DNA of 64,000 nucleotides from a virus. Numbering within the stretch: the stretch's first letter is position 1; each line of letters begins with the position of its first letter. The DNA is taken from IMG/VR virus record IMGVR_UViG_3300037247_000810, positions 39,460 through 103,459 of that record, one strand, 5' to 3'. The translations under genes were made by a program, and so were the position numbers. Below are positions 3,009 to 7,388 of this stretch, in pieces. The notes beneath the pieces are model-generated. The model had not been told where the DNA came from and did not search any database. It saw nothing but the letters and a program-made list of their open reading frames with translations.

Positions 3009-3242
3009 CTGATATGTGACGGGTGACTTGGGGGCGGCCGGTGTGGGCAACTCAGACCCGCAAGTCTTCGATTCCTCTCAGACCTTGGCACTTGCTTCCG
3101 GTCTGGATTATTTCAACGCCGCCCGTCCGACGTTAGCCCACGGGATCACACACCTGACCCGTGGGGAAACGCAGTGGCCCGCGCGGGTGCTACCACTGTC
3201 CACGTCTTCGGGCAAGCCCTACTGGTGAACTTACGCAGGCCG
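3009..3242 (-). ncRNA. Structured RNA at the 3' end of the tRNA operon (unidentified)
   Basis: No open frame is convincing here. Perfect stems are visible: CAGACC/GGTCTG (3079-3105), CCCACGGG/CCCGTGGG (3137-3165), CAGTGG/CCACTG (around 3173-3199) and GGGC/GCCC (around 3210). It follows a tRNA-like minihelix and is closed by the hairpin at 2982. It does not match tmRNA, 6S or SRP RNA by eye. Confidence 0.4.
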
Positions 3243-3286
3243 GTGCCGGTGGAGGGAGTCGAACCCTCTTCTTACCCTTGACCGGC
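3243..3286 (-). ncRNA. tRNA-like minihelix 1 (acceptor stem plus T arm)
   Basis: Acceptor GCCGGT/ACCGGC pairs over 6 bp, with a perfect T arm (GAGGG, loop TTCGACT, CCCTC). An 11-base linker replaces the D and anticodon arms. The 3' end is ACCG, not ACCA. It directly follows the CCA of tRNA-Thr(CGT) and precedes the 3009-3242 RNA. Confidence 0.65.
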
Positions 3287-3361
3287 TGGAGCCATCGGAG
3301 GGAATCGAACCCTCTCCTGCGGTTTACGAAACCGCTGCACAGCCACTTGTGCTTCGATGGC
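3287..3361 (-). tRNA. tRNA-Thr(CGT)
   Basis: Anticodon loop TTCGTAA reads ACG. Acceptor GCCATCG/CGATGGC is perfect, discriminator U, CCA encoded. Confidence 0.92.
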
Positions 3362-3446
3362 TGGTAGCCTCGGCGAGAGTCGAACTCGCACGCCGTTTCC
3401 GGCCGGGGCTTCTAAGACCCCTACGTCTACCATTCCGTCACGAGGC
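3362..3446 (-). tRNA. tRNA-Leu(TAG)
   Basis: Loop CTTAGAA reads CTA. The long variable arm expected of leucine tRNAs is present; discriminator A, CCA encoded. Confidence 0.9.
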
Positions 3447-3522
3447 TGGTACACCTGGTAGGAGTCGAACCTACAATCTCTCGGATGTGAACCGAGCGCC
3501 TTAGCCTTTGGGCCACAGGTGC
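3447..3522 (-). tRNA. tRNA-Val(CAC)
   Basis: Loop TTCACAT in a CTCGG/CCGAG stem reads GTG. Acceptor GCACCTG with a G-U first pair; discriminator A, CCA encoded. Confidence 0.92.
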
Positions 3523-3598
3523 TGGTGCTTCGGGACGGATTTGAACCGCCGACGCCGCGCTCTTCAGGCGCGCGCTCTACCCCTGAGCTACCGAAGCG
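3523..3598 (-). tRNA. tRNA-Phe(GAA)
   Basis: Loop CTGAAGA reads TTC. Acceptor GCTTCGG/CCGAAGC is perfect; CCA encoded. Confidence 0.92.
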
Positions 3599-3675
<77 letters not shown>

Positions 3676-3750
3676 TGGAGCGGAAGAAGGGACTCGAACC
3701 CTCGACATTCTCGTTGGCAACGAGACATTCTACCACTGAATTACTTCCGC
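3676..3750 (-). tRNA. tRNA-Gly(GCC)
   Basis: Loop TTGCCAA in a TCTCG/CGAGA stem reads GGC. Acceptor GCGGAAG/CTTCCGC; discriminator U as usual for glycine; CCA encoded. Confidence 0.93.
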
Positions 3751-3837
3751 TGGTGTCACCGGCGAGAGTCGAACTCGCACCCCCTTGCGGGGACAAGGCT
3801 CTCAACCTTGCATGTCTACCTGTTCCATCACGGTGAC
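3751..3837 (-). tRNA. tRNA-Leu(GAG)
   Basis: Loop TTGAGAG in a CAAGG/CCTTG stem reads CTC. Long variable hairpin (CCCC/GGGG); acceptor GTCACCG/CGGTGAC; CCA encoded. Confidence 0.92.
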
Positions 3838-3913
3838 TGGTGAACTCGGTAGGAATCGAACCTACGACATCCGACGTATCAGATCGGCGCTCTAACCCCT
3901 GAGCTACGAGTCC
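3838..3913 (-). tRNA. tRNA-Ile(GAT)
   Basis: Loop CTGATAC reads ATC. Anticodon stem CCGAT/GTCGG has one wobble; CCA encoded. Confidence 0.9.
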
Positions 3914-3989
3914 TGGTGACAGCGGGTGGACTTGAACCACCGGCCTTCGCCTTATGAGGGCGCTGCTCTACCAACTGAGCTACGCTGCC
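3914..3989 (-). tRNA. tRNA with CAT anticodon, probably elongator Met (copy A)
   Basis: Loop CTCATAA. The anticodon stem GCGCC/GGCGA lacks the three G-C pairs of an initiator and has an end mismatch, and bases 1-72 pair (G-C), so an initiator role is unlikely. Met elongator or lysidine-modified Ile are both possible. Confidence 0.88.
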
Positions 3990-4067
3990 TGGTAGCCCCA
4001 GCAGGATTCGAACCTGCGACGTTCCGCTTAAGAGGCGGCTGCTCTGGCCGGACTGAGCTATGGGGCC
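3990..4067 (-). tRNA. tRNA-Lys(CTT)
   Basis: Loop CTCTTAA reads AAG. Acceptor GGCCCCA starts with a G-U pair; CCA encoded. Confidence 0.91.
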
Positions 4068-4153
4068 TGGTGCGCAAGGAGGGAATCGAACCCTCAAACC
4101 CTAGTGGGCACACGGTTCTGAGCCGTGCGTGTTTACCGTTTCACCACTCGCGC
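4068..4153 (-). tRNA. tRNA-Leu(CAG)
   Basis: Loop CTCAGAA in a CACGG/CCGTG stem reads CTG. Long variable arm present; CCA encoded. Confidence 0.92.
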
Positions 4154-4241
4154 TGGTGGGGCAGGTAGGACTCGAACCTACGGAGACCGTTAAGGCCAGC
4201 AGGGTTACAGCCTGCCGCAATTGCCGCTATGCGACTACCCC
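4154..4241 (-). tRNA. tRNA-Tyr(GTA)
   Basis: Loop CTGTAAC in a GCAGG/CCTGC stem reads TAC. The long variable arm fits bacterial tRNA-Tyr. A two-base spacer separates it from the CCA of the next tRNA. Confidence 0.92.
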
Positions 4242-4243
4242 TT

Positions 4244-4317
4244 TGGAGACCCCGGCCGGATTCGAACCGACGATAACCGGGTTGCAGCCGGTTGCCTTAC
4301 CACTTGGCCACGGGGTC
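4244..4317 (-). tRNA. tRNA-Cys(GCA)
   Basis: Loop CTGCAAC in an ACCGG/CCGGT stem reads TGC. Acceptor GACCCCG/CGGGGTC is perfect; discriminator U, as in bacterial tRNA-Cys; CCA encoded. Confidence 0.92.
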
Positions 4318-4390
4318 TGGCACACCTGGTAGGAGTCGAACCTACTCTCACGGGTTTGGAGTCCGGTCGGCGCATCCCGCGCTCAGGTGC
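4318..4390 (-). tRNA. tRNA-Trp(CCA)
   Basis: Loop CTCCAAA reads TGG. Discriminator G fits tryptophan identity. The anticodon stem has only three clean pairs; the unusual stem is shared with tRNA-Gln(TTG). Confidence 0.85.
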
Positions 4391-4465
4391 TGGCTGTCGG
4401 ACTAGGATTCGAACCTAGAACTTCCTGATTCAGAGTCAGGCGTCATACCGTTAGACCATCCGACA
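4391..4465 (-). tRNA. tRNA-Gln(CTG)
   Basis: Loop CTCTGAA in a CCTGA/TCAGG stem reads CAG. Acceptor TGTCGGA/TCCGACA, discriminator G as in glutamine tRNAs; CCA encoded. Confidence 0.92.
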
Positions 4466-4539
4466 TGGATGCGGGAGCAGGAATCGAACCTGCATTCACG
4501 GGTTCAAAGTCCGACGTCCGACCTTTAGACGATCCCGCA
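4466..4539 (-). tRNA. tRNA-Gln(TTG)
   Basis: Loop CTTTGAA reads CAA. Acceptor TGCGGGA/TCCCGCA. The discriminator is U rather than the usual G, and the anticodon stem is weak. Confidence 0.86.
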
Positions 4540-4626
4540 TGGTGCGCCGGGAGGGAGTCGAACCCTCATGCCCCTGGAAGCACACGGGTTTGAGCCGTGC
4601 GTGTCTACCAATTTCACCACCGACGC
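4540..4626 (-). tRNA. tRNA-Leu(CAA)
   Basis: Loop CTCAAAC in a CACGG/CCGTG stem reads TTG. Long variable arm; CCA encoded. Closely resembles tRNA-Leu(CAG) in the anticodon arm. Confidence 0.91.
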
Positions 4627-4704
4627 TGGTGGGCCAGGTGGGAGTCGAACCCACAAGAGACACGGGGTTTAAGCCCGCCGCATATACCATTCTGCTACTG
4701 GCCT
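4627..4704 (-). tRNA. tRNA with TAA anticodon (Leu by codon, but short variable loop)
   Basis: Loop CTTAAAC would read TTA. Unlike the other four leucine tRNAs the variable region is only about 7-8 bases, so the leucine identity is open. First pair is A-C, D stem about 3 bp. CCA encoded. Confidence 0.75.
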
Positions 4705-4780
4705 TGGCACCAGAGGTAGGACTCGAACCTACAACCAACCGCTTAACAGGCGGCCGCGCTACCTATTGCGCCACTCTGGT
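4705..4780 (-). tRNA. tRNA-Asn(GTT)
   Basis: Loop CTGTTAA in a CCGC/GCGG stem reads AAC. Acceptor ACCAGAG/CTCTGGT, discriminator G; CCA encoded. Confidence 0.92.
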
Positions 4781-4849
4781 TGGAGCCAGGGGCGGGATTC
4801 GAACCCGCGTCTACAGACTTACAAGGCCCTAGACAACCTGTTACCTGGC
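4781..4849 (-). tRNA. tRNA-Thr(TGT), shortened D arm
   Basis: 69 bases. Loop CTTGTAA reads ACA. The D arm is cut down to a 3-bp stem with a GGT loop, and the anticodon stem relies on G-U pairs. T arm and acceptor are normal apart from one mismatch; CCA encoded. It may be degenerate. Confidence 0.72.
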
Positions 4850-4939
4850 TGGCGAAGCGAGCAGGATTCGAACCTGCGAGACCTTACGGCCCACCGCGTT
4901 AGCAGCGCGGCGCATTCAACCTGACTCTGCCACCGCTTC
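4850..4939 (-). tRNA. tRNA-Ser(GCT)
   Basis: Loop CTGCTAA in a CCGCG/CGCGG stem reads AGC. Long variable arm and discriminator G fit serine. The 12 bases TGGCACCGCTTC just outside its 5' end (4940-4951) duplicate its acceptor end. Confidence 0.9.
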
Positions 4940-4951
4940 TGGCACCGCTTC

Positions 4952-5027
4952 TGGCACCCTCGGCAGGAGTTGAACCCGCGACATCCTGGTTCGAAGCCAG
5001 GCACTCTGTCCACTGAGCTACGAGGGC
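4952..5027 (-). tRNA. tRNA-Arg(TCG)
   Basis: Loop CTTCGAA in a CCTGG/CCAGG stem reads CGA and probably CGG. First pair G-U, discriminator G; CCA encoded. Confidence 0.92.
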
Positions 5028-5105
5028 TGGTATCCGTGAGAGGGCTCGAACCTCCGGCCTCAGCCTTCGCAGGGCTGCGCTCTTATCCAACTGAGCTACA
5101 CGGAC
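5028..5105 (-). tRNA. tRNA-Arg(GCG)
   Basis: Loop CTGCGAA in a CAGCC/GGCTG stem reads CGC. Most bacteria use an ACG (inosine) anticodon for this box, so the G34 form is unusual. Confidence 0.9.
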
Positions 5106-5192
5106 TGGCGGAAGGTGAGGGATTCGAACCCCCAAGGCCCATCACGCCCAACCGCTTTCAAGGCGGTGTACCACACCAATGGCAGACCTTCC
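5106..5192 (-). tRNA. tRNA-Ser(TGA)
   Basis: Loop CTTGAAA in an ACCGC/GCGGT stem reads TCA. Long variable arm, discriminator G, CCA encoded. Confidence 0.92.
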
Positions 5193-5280
5193 TGGAGGAG
5201 ACGGTGGGATTCGAACCCACGAGACCTTGCAGCCCACTCGCTTTCGAGGCGAGCGCTTTCATCCACTCAGCCACATCTCC
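5193..5280 (-). tRNA. tRNA-Ser(CGA)
   Basis: Loop CTCGAAA in a CTCGC/GCGAG stem reads TCG. Long variable arm; discriminator U instead of the usual G; CCA encoded. Confidence 0.91.
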
Positions 5281-5368
5281 TGGCGGACGCTGTAGGATTC
5301 GAACCTACGGTGCCTTGCGACACACACGCTTTCCAGACGTGCCCGTTAAACCACTCCGGCAAGCATCC
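5281..5368 (-). tRNA. tRNA-Ser(GGA)
   Basis: Loop CTGGAAA in a CACGT/GCGTG stem reads TCC. Long variable arm, discriminator G, CCA encoded. Preceded by a structured spacer instead of another tRNA. Confidence 0.91.
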
Positions 5369-5456
5369 GTGTGCGGCGGCCTGCATCACAGTGTGCCTAC
5401 TAACATATAGGGTGGAGCCCAATGTTTCGGCACACGCCGCCGCCATCCACATTCTG
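5369..5456 (-). ncRNA. Structured spacer RNA, about 88 nt
   Basis: On the minus strand a nested hairpin is visible: outer GGCGGC/GCCGCC, then a perfect GTGTGCC/GGCACAC, then AACAT/ATGTT, then GGG/CCC around a small loop. No tRNA domains are seen. It sits between minihelix 2 (5' side) and tRNA-Ser(GGA). Function unknown. Confidence 0.45.
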
Positions 5457-5501
5457 TGTCGGCTGCGGGAATCGAACCCACCTAACACCAGTTTAGCCGA
5501 C
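5457..5501 (-). ncRNA. tRNA-like minihelix 2
   Basis: Perfect 7-bp acceptor GTCGGCT/AGCCGAC, T arm GTGGG/CCCGC with loop TTCGATT, and a 13-base linker containing CTGGTG in place of the D and anticodon arms. The 3' end is ACAG, not ACCA. Abuts the CCA of tRNA-Asp. Confidence 0.7.
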
Positions 5502-5578
5502 TGGCGACCCCTACGGGATTTGAACCCGTGACCTCCGCCTTGACAGGGCGGCGAGCACAACCACTGCTCCAAGGGGCC
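5502..5578 (-). tRNA. tRNA-Asp(GTC)
   Basis: Loop CTGTCAA in a CCGCC/GGCGG stem reads GAC. Acceptor GGCCCCT, discriminator G, CCA encoded and directly followed by minihelix 2. Confidence 0.92.
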
Positions 5579-5663
5579 TCGTTGCTAGCGCAGGTGCCCT
5601 TGGCCTTGGCTCCCCGACCGACCCGCTAGCTAGTCGACCGGATCAACGCTGTACCGAAGGGCT
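5579..5663 (-). ncRNA. Structured spacer RNA, about 85 nt
   Basis: On the minus strand CGTTG pairs with CAACG and, inside it, GCTAGCG with CGCTAGC, enclosing about 35 bases. Unlike the other spacers it has no minihelix on its 5' side; it follows the CCA of the CAT tRNA directly. Function unknown. Confidence 0.35.
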
Positions 5664-5739
5664 TGGTGGCGGAGGCAGGATTCGAACCGACGTTCTCTTG
5701 CTTATGAGGCAAGCGAGATGACCACTTCTCCACTCCGCT
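5664..5739 (-). tRNA. tRNA with CAT anticodon (copy B), A1-C72 mismatch
   Basis: Loop CTCATAA in a CTTGC/GCAAG stem. The first acceptor pair is A-C, reminiscent of the initiator mismatch, but the anticodon stem lacks the three G-C pairs of an initiator. Could be Met, initiator-like, or lysidine Ile reading ATA. Confidence 0.85.
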
Positions 5740-5814
5740 TGGCGGCCCATCAGGGAATCGAACCCTGCTCTGATGCTTGAGGGGCATCTATCCTATCCGA
5801 TAGACGAATGGGCC
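5740..5814 (-). tRNA. tRNA-Glu(CTC)
   Basis: Loop CCCTCAA in a GATGC/GCATC stem reads GAG. Acceptor GGCCCAT/ATGGGCC, discriminator G, CCA encoded. Confidence 0.91.
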
Positions 5815-5890
5815 TGGTCGGGACGGCAGGATTCTAACCTGCGATTCCGTGCTCCCAAAGCACGTGTGTTGAACACTACACTACGCCCCG
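5815..5890 (-). tRNA. tRNA-Pro(TGG), altered T loop
   Basis: Loop TTTGGGA reads CCA. C1-G72 and A73 fit proline. The T loop is TTAGAAT: the almost universal C56 is A, which should disturb the G19-C56 contact. Confidence 0.86.
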
Positions 5891-5967
5891 TGGTCGGAGT
5901 TGCAAGACTCGAACTTGCGGCCCCCGCGTCCCGAACGCGGTGCTCTTCCTGGCTGAGCTAAACTCCG
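5891..5967 (-). tRNA. tRNA-Pro(CGG)
   Basis: Loop TTCGGGA in a CCGCG/CGCGG stem reads CCG. Acceptor CGGAGTT/AACTCCG with C1-G72; CCA encoded. Confidence 0.92.
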
Positions 5968-6043
5968 TGGGGTGATCGAGGAGATTTGAACTCCCGCTAA
6001 GAGGGCCACAACCTCTTGTGCTAACCACTACACTACGACCACC
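5968..6043 (-). tRNA. tRNA-His(GTG)
   Basis: Loop TTGTGGC in an AGAGG/CCTCT stem reads CAC. Discriminator C and an extra 5' G (G-1) give the histidine identity pair. Confidence 0.92.
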
Positions 6044-6044
6044 T

Positions 6045-6118
6045 TGGAGCGCCTAGCGGGAATCGAACCCGCGAACTCTGCTTGGAAGGCAGATATGTTG
6101 CCCCTACATCACAGGCGC
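6045..6118 (-). tRNA. tRNA-Gly(TCC)
   Basis: Loop CTTCCAA in a TCTGC/GCAGA stem reads GGA and likely GGG. Discriminator U; CCA encoded. Confidence 0.92.
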
Positions 6119-6193
6119 TGGTACGGGCGGTGGGACTCGAACCCACACCGAACGGTTTAAAAGACCGCTGCTCTGCCTTCGAGCTACACCCGC
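6119..6193 (-). tRNA. tRNA-Lys(TTT)
   Basis: Loop CTTTTAA in a CGGT/ACCG stem reads AAA. Acceptor GCGGGTG with wobbles; CCA encoded. Confidence 0.91.
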
Positions 6194-6269
6194 TGGTAGC
6201 GTCGACGGGATTCGAACCCGCTCCGTCCGGTTTGAAAGACCGGCGACCTATCCTGTAGTCGACGACGCT
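6194..6269 (-). tRNA. tRNA-Glu(TTC)
   Basis: Loop CTTTCAA in a CCGGT/ACCGG stem reads GAA. Acceptor AGCGTCG/CGACGCT; CCA encoded. Confidence 0.91.
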
Positions 6270-6345
6270 TGGAGCCTTCGGCGAGATTCGAACTCGCTGC
6301 CTCGTTCTTACCAAGAACGCGCTCTACCAATTGAGCTACGAAGGC
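6270..6345 (-). tRNA. tRNA-Thr(GGT)
   Basis: Loop TTGGTAA in a CGTTC/GAACG stem reads ACC. Acceptor GCCTTCG/CGAAGGC; CCA encoded. Its 5' end lies 8 bases after the RNase P RNA 3' end. Confidence 0.92.
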
Positions 6346-6353
6346 TTGTTATC

Positions 6354-6686
6354 GAGCAATCGGGTCGTAAGCCGCTTTCTGTTTCTCTGCCTACATCTCT
6401 CTAGCTGTCACGCGGTCGCTGCCAAACTACCCGCCGCGCCTCCGGCCCCCTAACGCAATCCGTCTTTTCACACGACCTCCGTGTCTCCGGGTCTCGGCAG
6501 GCTCGGTGGCCCGCTACCCGTAGTCGCTGTTCGTGACATCTCGCCGGTCTCTTGCCCGACGGCCCGCCTTATTAGGGACGGGTAGGTTGTTTGGCGGCCG
6601 AGCGGACTTTCCTCAAGGGCCTCGTGGTGCAAACGCCTCGCGGCTCCCACCAGACGATCCTGCGTAGGCACGTCCGATTGCTCTCT
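6354..6686 (-). ncRNA. rnpB: RNase P RNA (catalytic RNA), phage-encoded
   Basis: About 333 nt. The universal core is complete on the minus strand: CR-I GAGGAAAGTCCG (6603-6614) and the 3' block ACAGAAAGCGGCTTA (6368-6382). Helix P1 is a perfect 10 bp, GAGCAATCGG (5' end, 6674-6683) with CCGATTGCTC (3' end, 6354-6363). P2 pairs TGCCTAC with GTAGGCA. P4 pairs AAG-CCGC with GCGG-CTT leaving the conserved bulged T. P3 is visible as TGGTG/CACCA. Role: the ribozyme that cuts tRNA 5' leaders. The 5' end abuts minihelix 3 and the 3' end lies just before tRNA-Thr(GGT), so it would be released from the same precursor it matures. No RnpA protein gene is seen, so the host protein is presumably used. Confidence 0.93.
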
Positions 6687-6737
6687 TGGCAGCCGGTCGC
6701 GGAATCGAACCGCACGGAGGTCAACCAGACCCCGGCT
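6687..6737 (-). ncRNA. tRNA-like minihelix 3
   Basis: Acceptor AGCCGG/CCGGCT, T arm TGCGG/CCGCG with loop TTCGATT, and a linker that itself forms GGTC-TGGTT-GACC, like a D arm. No anticodon arm. This copy keeps GCCA at its 3' end. It joins the CCA of tRNA-Arg(CCT) to the RNase P RNA. Confidence 0.7.
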
Positions 6738-6812
6738 TGGTGCCCTGAGCGGGAATCGAACCCGCATCTGCCGCTTAGGAGGCGGCTGCGCTATCCATTA
6801 CGCCATCAGGGT
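6738..6812 (-). tRNA. tRNA-Arg(CCT)
   Basis: Loop CTCCTAA in a GCCGC/GCGGC stem reads AGG. First pair may be A-C; discriminator A; CCA encoded. Confidence 0.9.
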
Positions 6813-6892
6813 TCAATAGGCATCCGTGCCGATGGCCTTCCTGGCCCCAATACCACGGCCCGCCTGAGTTAAGGCACACGGGCCGGACGGTC
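6813..6892 (-). ncRNA. Structured spacer RNA, about 80 nt
   Basis: On the minus strand GGCCCG/CGGGCC encloses GCCT/AGGC, followed by CCGTG/CACGG around a GGCC/GGCC hairpin. Two adjacent stem-loops, no tRNA domains. Preceded by minihelix 4 and followed by tRNA-Arg(CCT). Confidence 0.4.
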
Positions 6893-6935
6893 GACTGCGC
6901 GGGGATTTGACCCCATAGCGCCAAGCGCCGCAGCC
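6893..6935 (-). ncRNA. tRNA-like minihelix 4 (degenerate T loop)
   Basis: Acceptor GGCTGCG/CGCAGTC pairs over 7 bp with one wobble. A GCGC-TTG-GCGC hairpin sits where the D arm would be. The T stem is TGGGG/CCCCG but the loop is TCAAAT, one base short. 3' end GACC. Two bases from the CCA of tRNA-Arg(TCT). Confidence 0.55.
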
Positions 6936-6937
6936 GT

Positions 6938-7007
6938 TGGCACCCTCGGTGGGAGTCGAACCCACGTTTGGCCGCTTAGAAGGCGGCGCATCGTCCCCGA
7001 CGAGGGC
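6938..7007 (-). tRNA. tRNA-Arg(TCT), shortened D arm
   Basis: 70 bases. Loop CTTCTAA in a GCCGC/GCGGC stem reads AGA. The D arm is only TCG-GGGA-CGA. Acceptor GCCCTCG as in tRNA-Arg(TCG); CCA encoded. Confidence 0.82.
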
Positions 7008-7083
7008 TGGTGAGCGATGAGGGAGTCGAACCCCCGGCACCCTGGATGTAAGCCAGGTGCTCTGGCCTCTGAGCTAATCGCCC
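7008..7083 (-). tRNA. tRNA-Val(TAC)
   Basis: Loop CTTACAT in a CCTGG/CCAGG stem reads GTA. Acceptor GGGCGAT; CCA encoded. Confidence 0.92.
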
Positions 7084-7158
7084 TGGTGGAGATGACAGGA
7101 TTCGAACCTGCGACTTTCAGTCTGCCAGACTGACACTCTCCCGCTGAGTTACATCCCC
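7084..7158 (-). tRNA. tRNA-Ala(GGC)
   Basis: Loop CTGGCAG in a TCAGT/ACTGA stem reads GCC. Acceptor GGGGATG; CCA encoded. Confidence 0.91.
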
Positions 7159-7234
7159 TGGTGGAGCACGCGGGACTCGAACCCGCAACCTCCTGCGTGC
7201 AAGGCAGGCGCACTCCCAATTGTGCTAGCACCCC
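7159..7234 (-). tRNA. tRNA-Ala(TGC)
   Basis: Loop CTTGCAC in a CCTGC/GCAGG stem reads GCA. The acceptor pairs with several G-U wobbles; CCA encoded. Confidence 0.91.
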
Positions 7235-7310
7235 TGGTGGAGACGACAGGACTCGAACCTGCTACCTCGTCGTTGCGAACGACGCACTCTCCCTGCTGAG
7301 CTACGCCCCC
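7235..7310 (-). tRNA. tRNA-Ala(CGC), first tRNA of the operon
   Basis: Loop TTCGCAA in a CGTCG/CGACG stem reads GCG. CCA encoded. The promoter lies about 45 bases upstream. Confidence 0.92.
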
Positions 7311-7359: not shown

Positions 7360-7388
7360 AATATACCGGATCGCGGAATACTTGTCAA
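7360..7388 (-). promoter_or_regulatory. Promoter of the tRNA/RNase P RNA operon
   Basis: On the minus strand TTGACA (7383-7388), 17-bp spacer, TATATT (7360-7365): a near-perfect sigma70 promoter, the best in the window. Transcription would begin near 7353, leaving a leader of about 43 bases before tRNA-Ala(CGC). The host polymerase should read it without phage factors. The rest of 7311-7530 shows no convincing gene. Confidence 0.88.

Follow-up and report, generated by a model that had tools for sequence, protein, structure and literature searches.

The 64,000-nucleotide stretch of viral DNA analyzed here (the window; positions 39460-103459 of a record of 103,459 bases) encodes, inside a tRNA operon, an RNA that is, judged by sequence and predicted fold, a divergent class-A-like RNase P RNA homologue carried by a phage. 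Nearly all cells have RNase P, and it has been assumed that phages rely on the host enzyme. The best reading, to which we assign a probability of about 0.7, is that the RNA would be a phage ribozyme that borrows the host protein RnpA to process the phage tRNAs. A preliminary description had already proposed a phage-encoded RNase P RNA in a tRNA operon, and this proposal is now supported by covariation with a related phage contig, termed L060, and by the same arrangement in about 20 other viral contigs.

The tRNA operon and the architecture of the RNA

The record carries genes of a tailed phage, including terminase, portal protein, a family A DNA polymerase and a single-stranded DNA-binding protein (SSB), and it also encodes a UvsX-like recombinase and an endolysin-like protein. 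The tRNA array of the window contains 40 tRNAs detected by ARAGORN, all 40 of them with an encoded CCA, and 32 of the 39 spacers are 2 nt or shorter. With two further tRNAs with degenerate D arms that were read in gaps of the ARAGORN annotation, the previously claimed number of 42 tRNAs around the RNA is reached. These two, Trp(CCA) and Thr(TGT), were missed by ARAGORN and Rfam and complete a 20-amino-acid set. A promoter-like TTGACA-17-TATATT sequence sits upstream of the first tRNA of the array. The features are as follows:

7360-7388, minus: predicted promoter TTGACA-17-TATATT (11/12 consensus matches, predicted from the consensus only)
3287-7310, minus: tRNA operon (40 ARAGORN tRNAs, 42 with two degenerate ones)
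6687-6737, minus: tRNA-like minihelix with acceptor stem, T arm and GCCA end (from its fold; kept in L060)
6354-6683, minus: phage RNase P RNA, P1 to P1, 330 nt (full-length RF00010 alignment; syntenic L060 homologue)
6674-6683, minus: P1 5' strand GAGCAAUCGG, pairs with 6363-6354
6664-6670, minus: P2 5' strand UGCCUAC, pairs with 6394-6388
6614-6662, minus: P3 region, outer stem CAGG/CUUG (L060: CUGG/CCAG; from the L060 comparison)
6603-6614, minus: CR-I GAGGAAAGUCCG, exact universal block
6601-6609, minus: P4 5' strand AAG(U)CCGCU, U bulged, pairs with AGCGGCUU at 6376-6369
6596-6600, minus: putative P5 5' strand CGGCC, partner 6447-6443 (assigned from covariation in L060)
6589-6595, minus: putative P6-like pseudoknot strand GCCAAAC, partner GUUUGGC at 6427-6421 (assigned from covariation in L060)
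6524-6532, minus: CR-II-like GAACAGCGA (by sequence; L060 differs at the first base only)
6464-6473, minus: CR-III-like GUGUGAAAAG (by sequence; identical in L060)
6410-6439, minus: P15-like hairpin, loop with GGGUAG and the P6 3' strand (stem 6439-6434/6415-6410 covaries)
6394-6404, minus: J18/2-like CUAGAGAGAUG (resembles class A UAGAugaAUG; identical in L060)
6388-6394, minus: P2 3' strand GUAGGCA, pairs with 6670-6664
6367-6382, minus: CR-V and P4 3' strand ACAGAAAGCGGCUUAC (exact; covaries with the P4 5' strand in 22 phage sequences)
6354-6363, minus: P1 3' strand CCGAUUGCUC, pairs with 6683-6674
6270-6345, minus: tRNA-Thr(GGT), 8 nt downstream of P1
4781-4849, minus: tRNA-Thr, anticodon TGT, short/degenerate D arm (read in an ARAGORN gap)
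4318-4390, minus: tRNA-Trp, anticodon CCA, short/degenerate D arm (read in an ARAGORN gap)

An RNase P core had been described at 6354-6686, and P1, P2, P4 with its bulge, CR-I and CR-V are indeed found on the minus strand from 6683 to 6354. P1 (GAGCAAUCGG/CCGAUUGCUC) consists of 10 perfect pairs, and when placements in the window are drawn at random, about 0.5% of them give a perfect 10-bp helix at this position; beyond this helix, two motifs that specify 23 bases match exactly at a fixed distance. P4 (AAG(U)CCGCU/AGCGGCUU) is formed between CR-I and CR-V with the bulged U, and P2 and P4 cross in a pseudoknot that is closed by P1, which is the topology of RNase P RNA. The CR-II-like and CR-III-like blocks follow in the correct order, as assigned by sequence and not by model placement. 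The loop of the P15-like hairpin (GCGGGUAGU) is unchanged in L060. In bacterial RNase P RNA, a GGU pairs with the tRNA 3' end, and by analogy the GGGUAG of this loop is a possible candidate binding site for the tRNA 3' RCCA. In class A RNAs, P6 joins J5/7 to the P15-P17 region, whereas class B has P5.1/P15.1. Unlike in E. coli, the 3' strand GUUUGGC of the P6-like helix is positioned 3' of the GGU. An A-rich J5/15 was not recognizable in the RNA, and its thermodynamic folding by itself was not unusual (z -1.55). An alternative P7 (CUACCC/GGGUAG), which had been picked by eye and by energy folding, was dropped, as L060 favours P6 GCCAAAC/GUUUGGC together with P7 CCUA/UAGG.

The immediate surroundings were also described correctly: the 3' end of the RNA lies 8 nt before tRNA-Thr(GGT), and a minihelix abuts the 5' end, three bases upstream of P1. 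This minihelix is one of four on the minus strand of the array (6893-6935, 6687-6737, about 5455-5501 and about 3242-3286), which consist of an acceptor stem and a T arm without D or anticodon arm, in most cases with a CCA-like end, and which stand at the edges of non-tRNA stretches or at the end of the array. One of them is mascRNA-like, with 27.9 bits and thus below the cut-off. Two strongly folded non-tRNA stretches, 6813-6890 and 5369-5454 (minus strand), each directly follow a minihelix, and the minihelices may possibly serve as processing punctuation.

Covariation with a related phage and Rfam scores

L060 has a terminase that is 85% identical, and its own tRNA array contains a syntenic RNA at about 5787-6117 with about 76% identity. 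When the collection was searched for a third close relative of the RNA by DNA pattern and protein, the L060 contig alone was returned. In P1, P2 and P4, the helices that had been chosen beforehand from knowledge about RNase P, nine pairs differ between the two phages, of which seven are still paired and six represent double changes. P1 shows three double compensatory changes, and one of its pairs is broken; P2 shows one double change, one compatible change and one broken pair, and in P4 a G-C pair is replaced by A-U and a U-A pair by C-G, with the bulged U being retained. The probability of six double changes among nine is about 5e-6 under a null drawn from every Watson-Crick column pair of this alignment, a null that ignores phylogeny and neighbouring pairs, and with a P1 3' strand that was aligned by hand. 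Because of these six double compensatory changes, we conclude that the fold of the RNA is under selection and that the RNA is no decaying relic. A search for covarying stacks further revealed two double compensatory changes in P5 and four double changes in the seven pairs of the P6-like pseudoknot GCCAAAC/GUUUGGC, and it also pointed to P7 and P15; the assignments of P5, P6, P7 and P15 were picked from the data and are weaker than those of P1, P2 and P4.

L060 retains the upstream minihelix as well as the RNA. Its CR-I deviates from the universal bases (GGGAAAAAUCC), and its copy gives no match to RF00010 and 24.9 bits to the archaeal model. In L060, the RNase P RNA is separated from tRNA-Thr by a further minihelix and an HNH-endonuclease-like reading frame (6140-6716), in place of the 8 nt of the window.

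The class A model of Rfam, RF00010, aligns in full length (1-367) to positions 6352-6681 of the window with 26 bits and an E-value of 3.9e-6 (901 bases), and the E-value is 1.1e-7 when the whole 103-kb record is searched. The gathering cut-off of RF00010 is 100 bits, and a gathering scan missed the RNA because its score is far below this value. At 26 bits, the previously suggested check with the Rfam models was passed weakly. Since tighter slices returned the 3' core alone (14.9 bits), we set the Rfam score by itself aside, and it is the comparison of the two genomes that carries the case for a homologue. Like class A RNase P RNA (RF00010, rnpB, M1 RNA), the RNA has P1, P2, P3, a P4 with bulged U, the P2/P4 pseudoknot, CR-I, CR-V, the J18/2 block and a GGU-bearing P15-like hairpin, together with the full-length model alignment; unlike class A rnpB, which is a lone chromosomal gene, it is phage-borne and lies inside a tRNA operon, its 26 bits stay below the cut-off of 100, P16, P17 and P18 are apparently absent, and P15 and J5/15 are reduced.

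RNase P RNAs in other viral contigs

Exact two-block patterns, composed of CR-I and CR-V at three spacings, matched 33 stretches in IMG/VR. On reading of sequence and context, 12 of these were sorted as host-like chromosome ends and left out (L018-L021, L023, L026-L028, L030, L033, L034, L036), and 21 were taken as viral; L029 is a near-duplicate of L017, which leaves 20 non-redundant viral contigs besides the window. In these 20 contigs, the scores range from 33 to 264 bits, and 11 are above the Rfam cut-off. Terminases were found in the contigs of L010, L013, L014, L016, L022, L024 and L031, and weakly in that of L005, which also encodes a T4-type gp23 capsid protein (2.5e-147); for the other contigs, the viral status is based on the IMG/VR classification and the tRNA arrays. 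The P1 sequence varies in nearly all viral RNAs and pairs in all of them. P1 and P4 covary in 22 phage sequences (99.4% of the cells paired; 0.756 versus 0.150 when shuffled), with a pairing rate that is inflated by P1, which was taken as the best helix per sequence, and not by P4, which was not picked in this way. A compact size had been considered as a phage trait and was rejected, as bacterial chromosomes frequently show this spacing, too.

The viral loci were also compared in location with bacterial rnpB genes. A tRNA on the same strand is found within 150 nt in 17 of 21 viral loci versus 5 of 80 bacterial ones, the latter from 80 contigs retrieved with one of these patterns, and the median number of tRNAs within 2.5 kb is 14 versus 0. 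The tRNAs next to the viral loci are nearly all on the same strand, and the downstream gap is 3-8 nt in 13 of the 21 loci. In several of the other phages, the spacers are longer and there are tRNAs that lack CCA. No RnpA was found in the 22 records searched.

Some of the individual contigs show further particularities. In a 114 kb viral contig (L011, 636-1755), about 450 nt separate a tmRNA (120.6 bits) from an RNase P RNA (203 bits); a 202-kb viral contig (L008), whose RNase P RNA has no tRNA nearby, carries a group I intron at 3325-3528 (68 bits); and for the RNA from a phage array on a 9.2-kb contig (L057, 56-354), unlike for the others, the top Rfam match was class B (32.8 bits). When the RNA of the window and five other phage RNase P RNAs were compared by BLASTN with 50,697 GenBank phage records, no convincing phage copy was detected; the matches were restricted to host-like DNA and unannotated faecal 'Bacteriophage sp.' records, and the two best of these each have at most one tRNA close to the matching stretch.

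Proposed function, rival explanations and known systems

In the proposed mechanism, a single transcript would carry the RNA and about 42 tRNAs, and a cut at the downstream tRNA-Thr would free the 3' end of the RNA, which would then fold to the P1/P2/P4 catalytic core and borrow RnpA of the host, as no RnpA is encoded in the 22 records. The holoenzyme would cut the 5' ends of the phage tRNAs, and a single RNase P cut would at the same time generate the mature CCA 3' end of the preceding tRNA. Because most tRNAs abut (0-2 nt) and carry CCA, the operon would need little other than RNase P. It is plausible that the RNA is cut from the same precursor; of its two ends, RNase P would release the 3' one only, and at the 5' minihelix junction either another nuclease would act or the RNA would stay joined. 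A maturation by RNase P alone fits most simply to the window, to L060, and to the group of L013, L014 and L016, and it cannot be a general rule because of the longer spacers and CCA-less tRNAs in several other phages. We lean slightly towards the broader view that in many unrelated phage groups an RNase P ribozyme has separately become part of a polycistronic tRNA transcript, and that in some of them, as in the window, RNase P cuts alone would mature a spacer-free, CCA-encoded array. Against the best reading count the low Rfam score, the lack of an RF00010 match and the altered CR-I in L060, the unrecognizable J5/15 and the inconspicuous thermodynamic folding. In addition, the RNase P of the host should already process phage tRNAs, and no RNase P RNA gene is known from most tRNA-rich phages. 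The phage would have to benefit from an additional or self-specific RNase P.

The array itself has features that could speak for an active RNase P with altered specificity, made for zero-spacer tRNAs, minihelices or other operon RNAs that the host RNase P cuts poorly: the array is largely free of spacers, minihelices stand at the edges of the non-tRNA stretches, and the specificity domain of the RNA is reduced and divergent. We consider this doubtful, as acceptor-T minihelices are known substrates of bacterial RNase P, so that a special enzyme is not obviously needed, and as the spacers are ordinary in other phages that carry the RNA. It is also unlikely that the RNA is a decoy whose RNase P fold sequesters host RnpA or pre-tRNA and lowers host tRNA processing without forming a useful enzyme. 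The lack of RnpA in the phages would agree with a decoy, as would the altered catalytic-core bases of L060 with its helices kept, but a decoy would be self-defeating inside arrays that need RNase P, and a P4 with U bulge, CR-V and J18/2 have been kept, which a protein decoy does not obviously require.

That the RNA is a non-functional relic of a captured host rnpB, as its low bit score and the broken pairs in L060 might suggest, is very unlikely in view of the double compensatory changes in P1, P2, P4 and P6, the synteny that is conserved at about 24% divergence, and its repeated occurrence within the tRNA operons of many contigs. That the RNA gene stems from bacterial contamination or misassembly, a concern raised by the twelve IMG/VR matches to host-like chromosome ends, is barely credible for the window, as its record contains terminase, portal, DNA polymerase and SSB genes, as L060 has the RNA at the same place, and as bacterial rnpB is seldom found in tRNA arrays.

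The RNase P RNAs of CPR bacteria are genuine and likewise divergent, score below the Rfam cut-offs, lack several helices and needed manual folding (Lui et al. 2021, PMC8172020), but they are chromosomal genes of cells and not part of viral tRNA operons. The tmRNA genes of huge phages (Al-Shayeb et al. 2020, PMC7162821) are a further case of a universal housekeeping RNA of translation in phages, albeit a different RNA, and L011 has both; RNase P is not mentioned in that paper. GOLLD and ROOL are large structured RNAs whose genes lie close to tRNA islands of phages (PMC12286853); their fold is unrelated, they have no known catalytic role, and neither had an Rfam match in the window. Among the open-access papers searched, a set without subscription papers and preprints, none describes a phage RNase P RNA, and priority is not proven.

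In summary, it appears that some phages carry a tRNA-processing ribozyme of their own, and several of the carriers are clearly unrelated. RNase P RNAs of viral operons would show that phages carry the catalytic core of a universal ribozyme, and they would offer structure-function studies a naturally varied set of RNase P RNAs of about 255-350 nt that are reduced and rearranged. They would also make it testable why a tRNA-rich phage may have its own RNase P, with possible reasons being a shut-off of the host tRNA machinery, unusual precursors, or the escape from tRNA-targeting defences.
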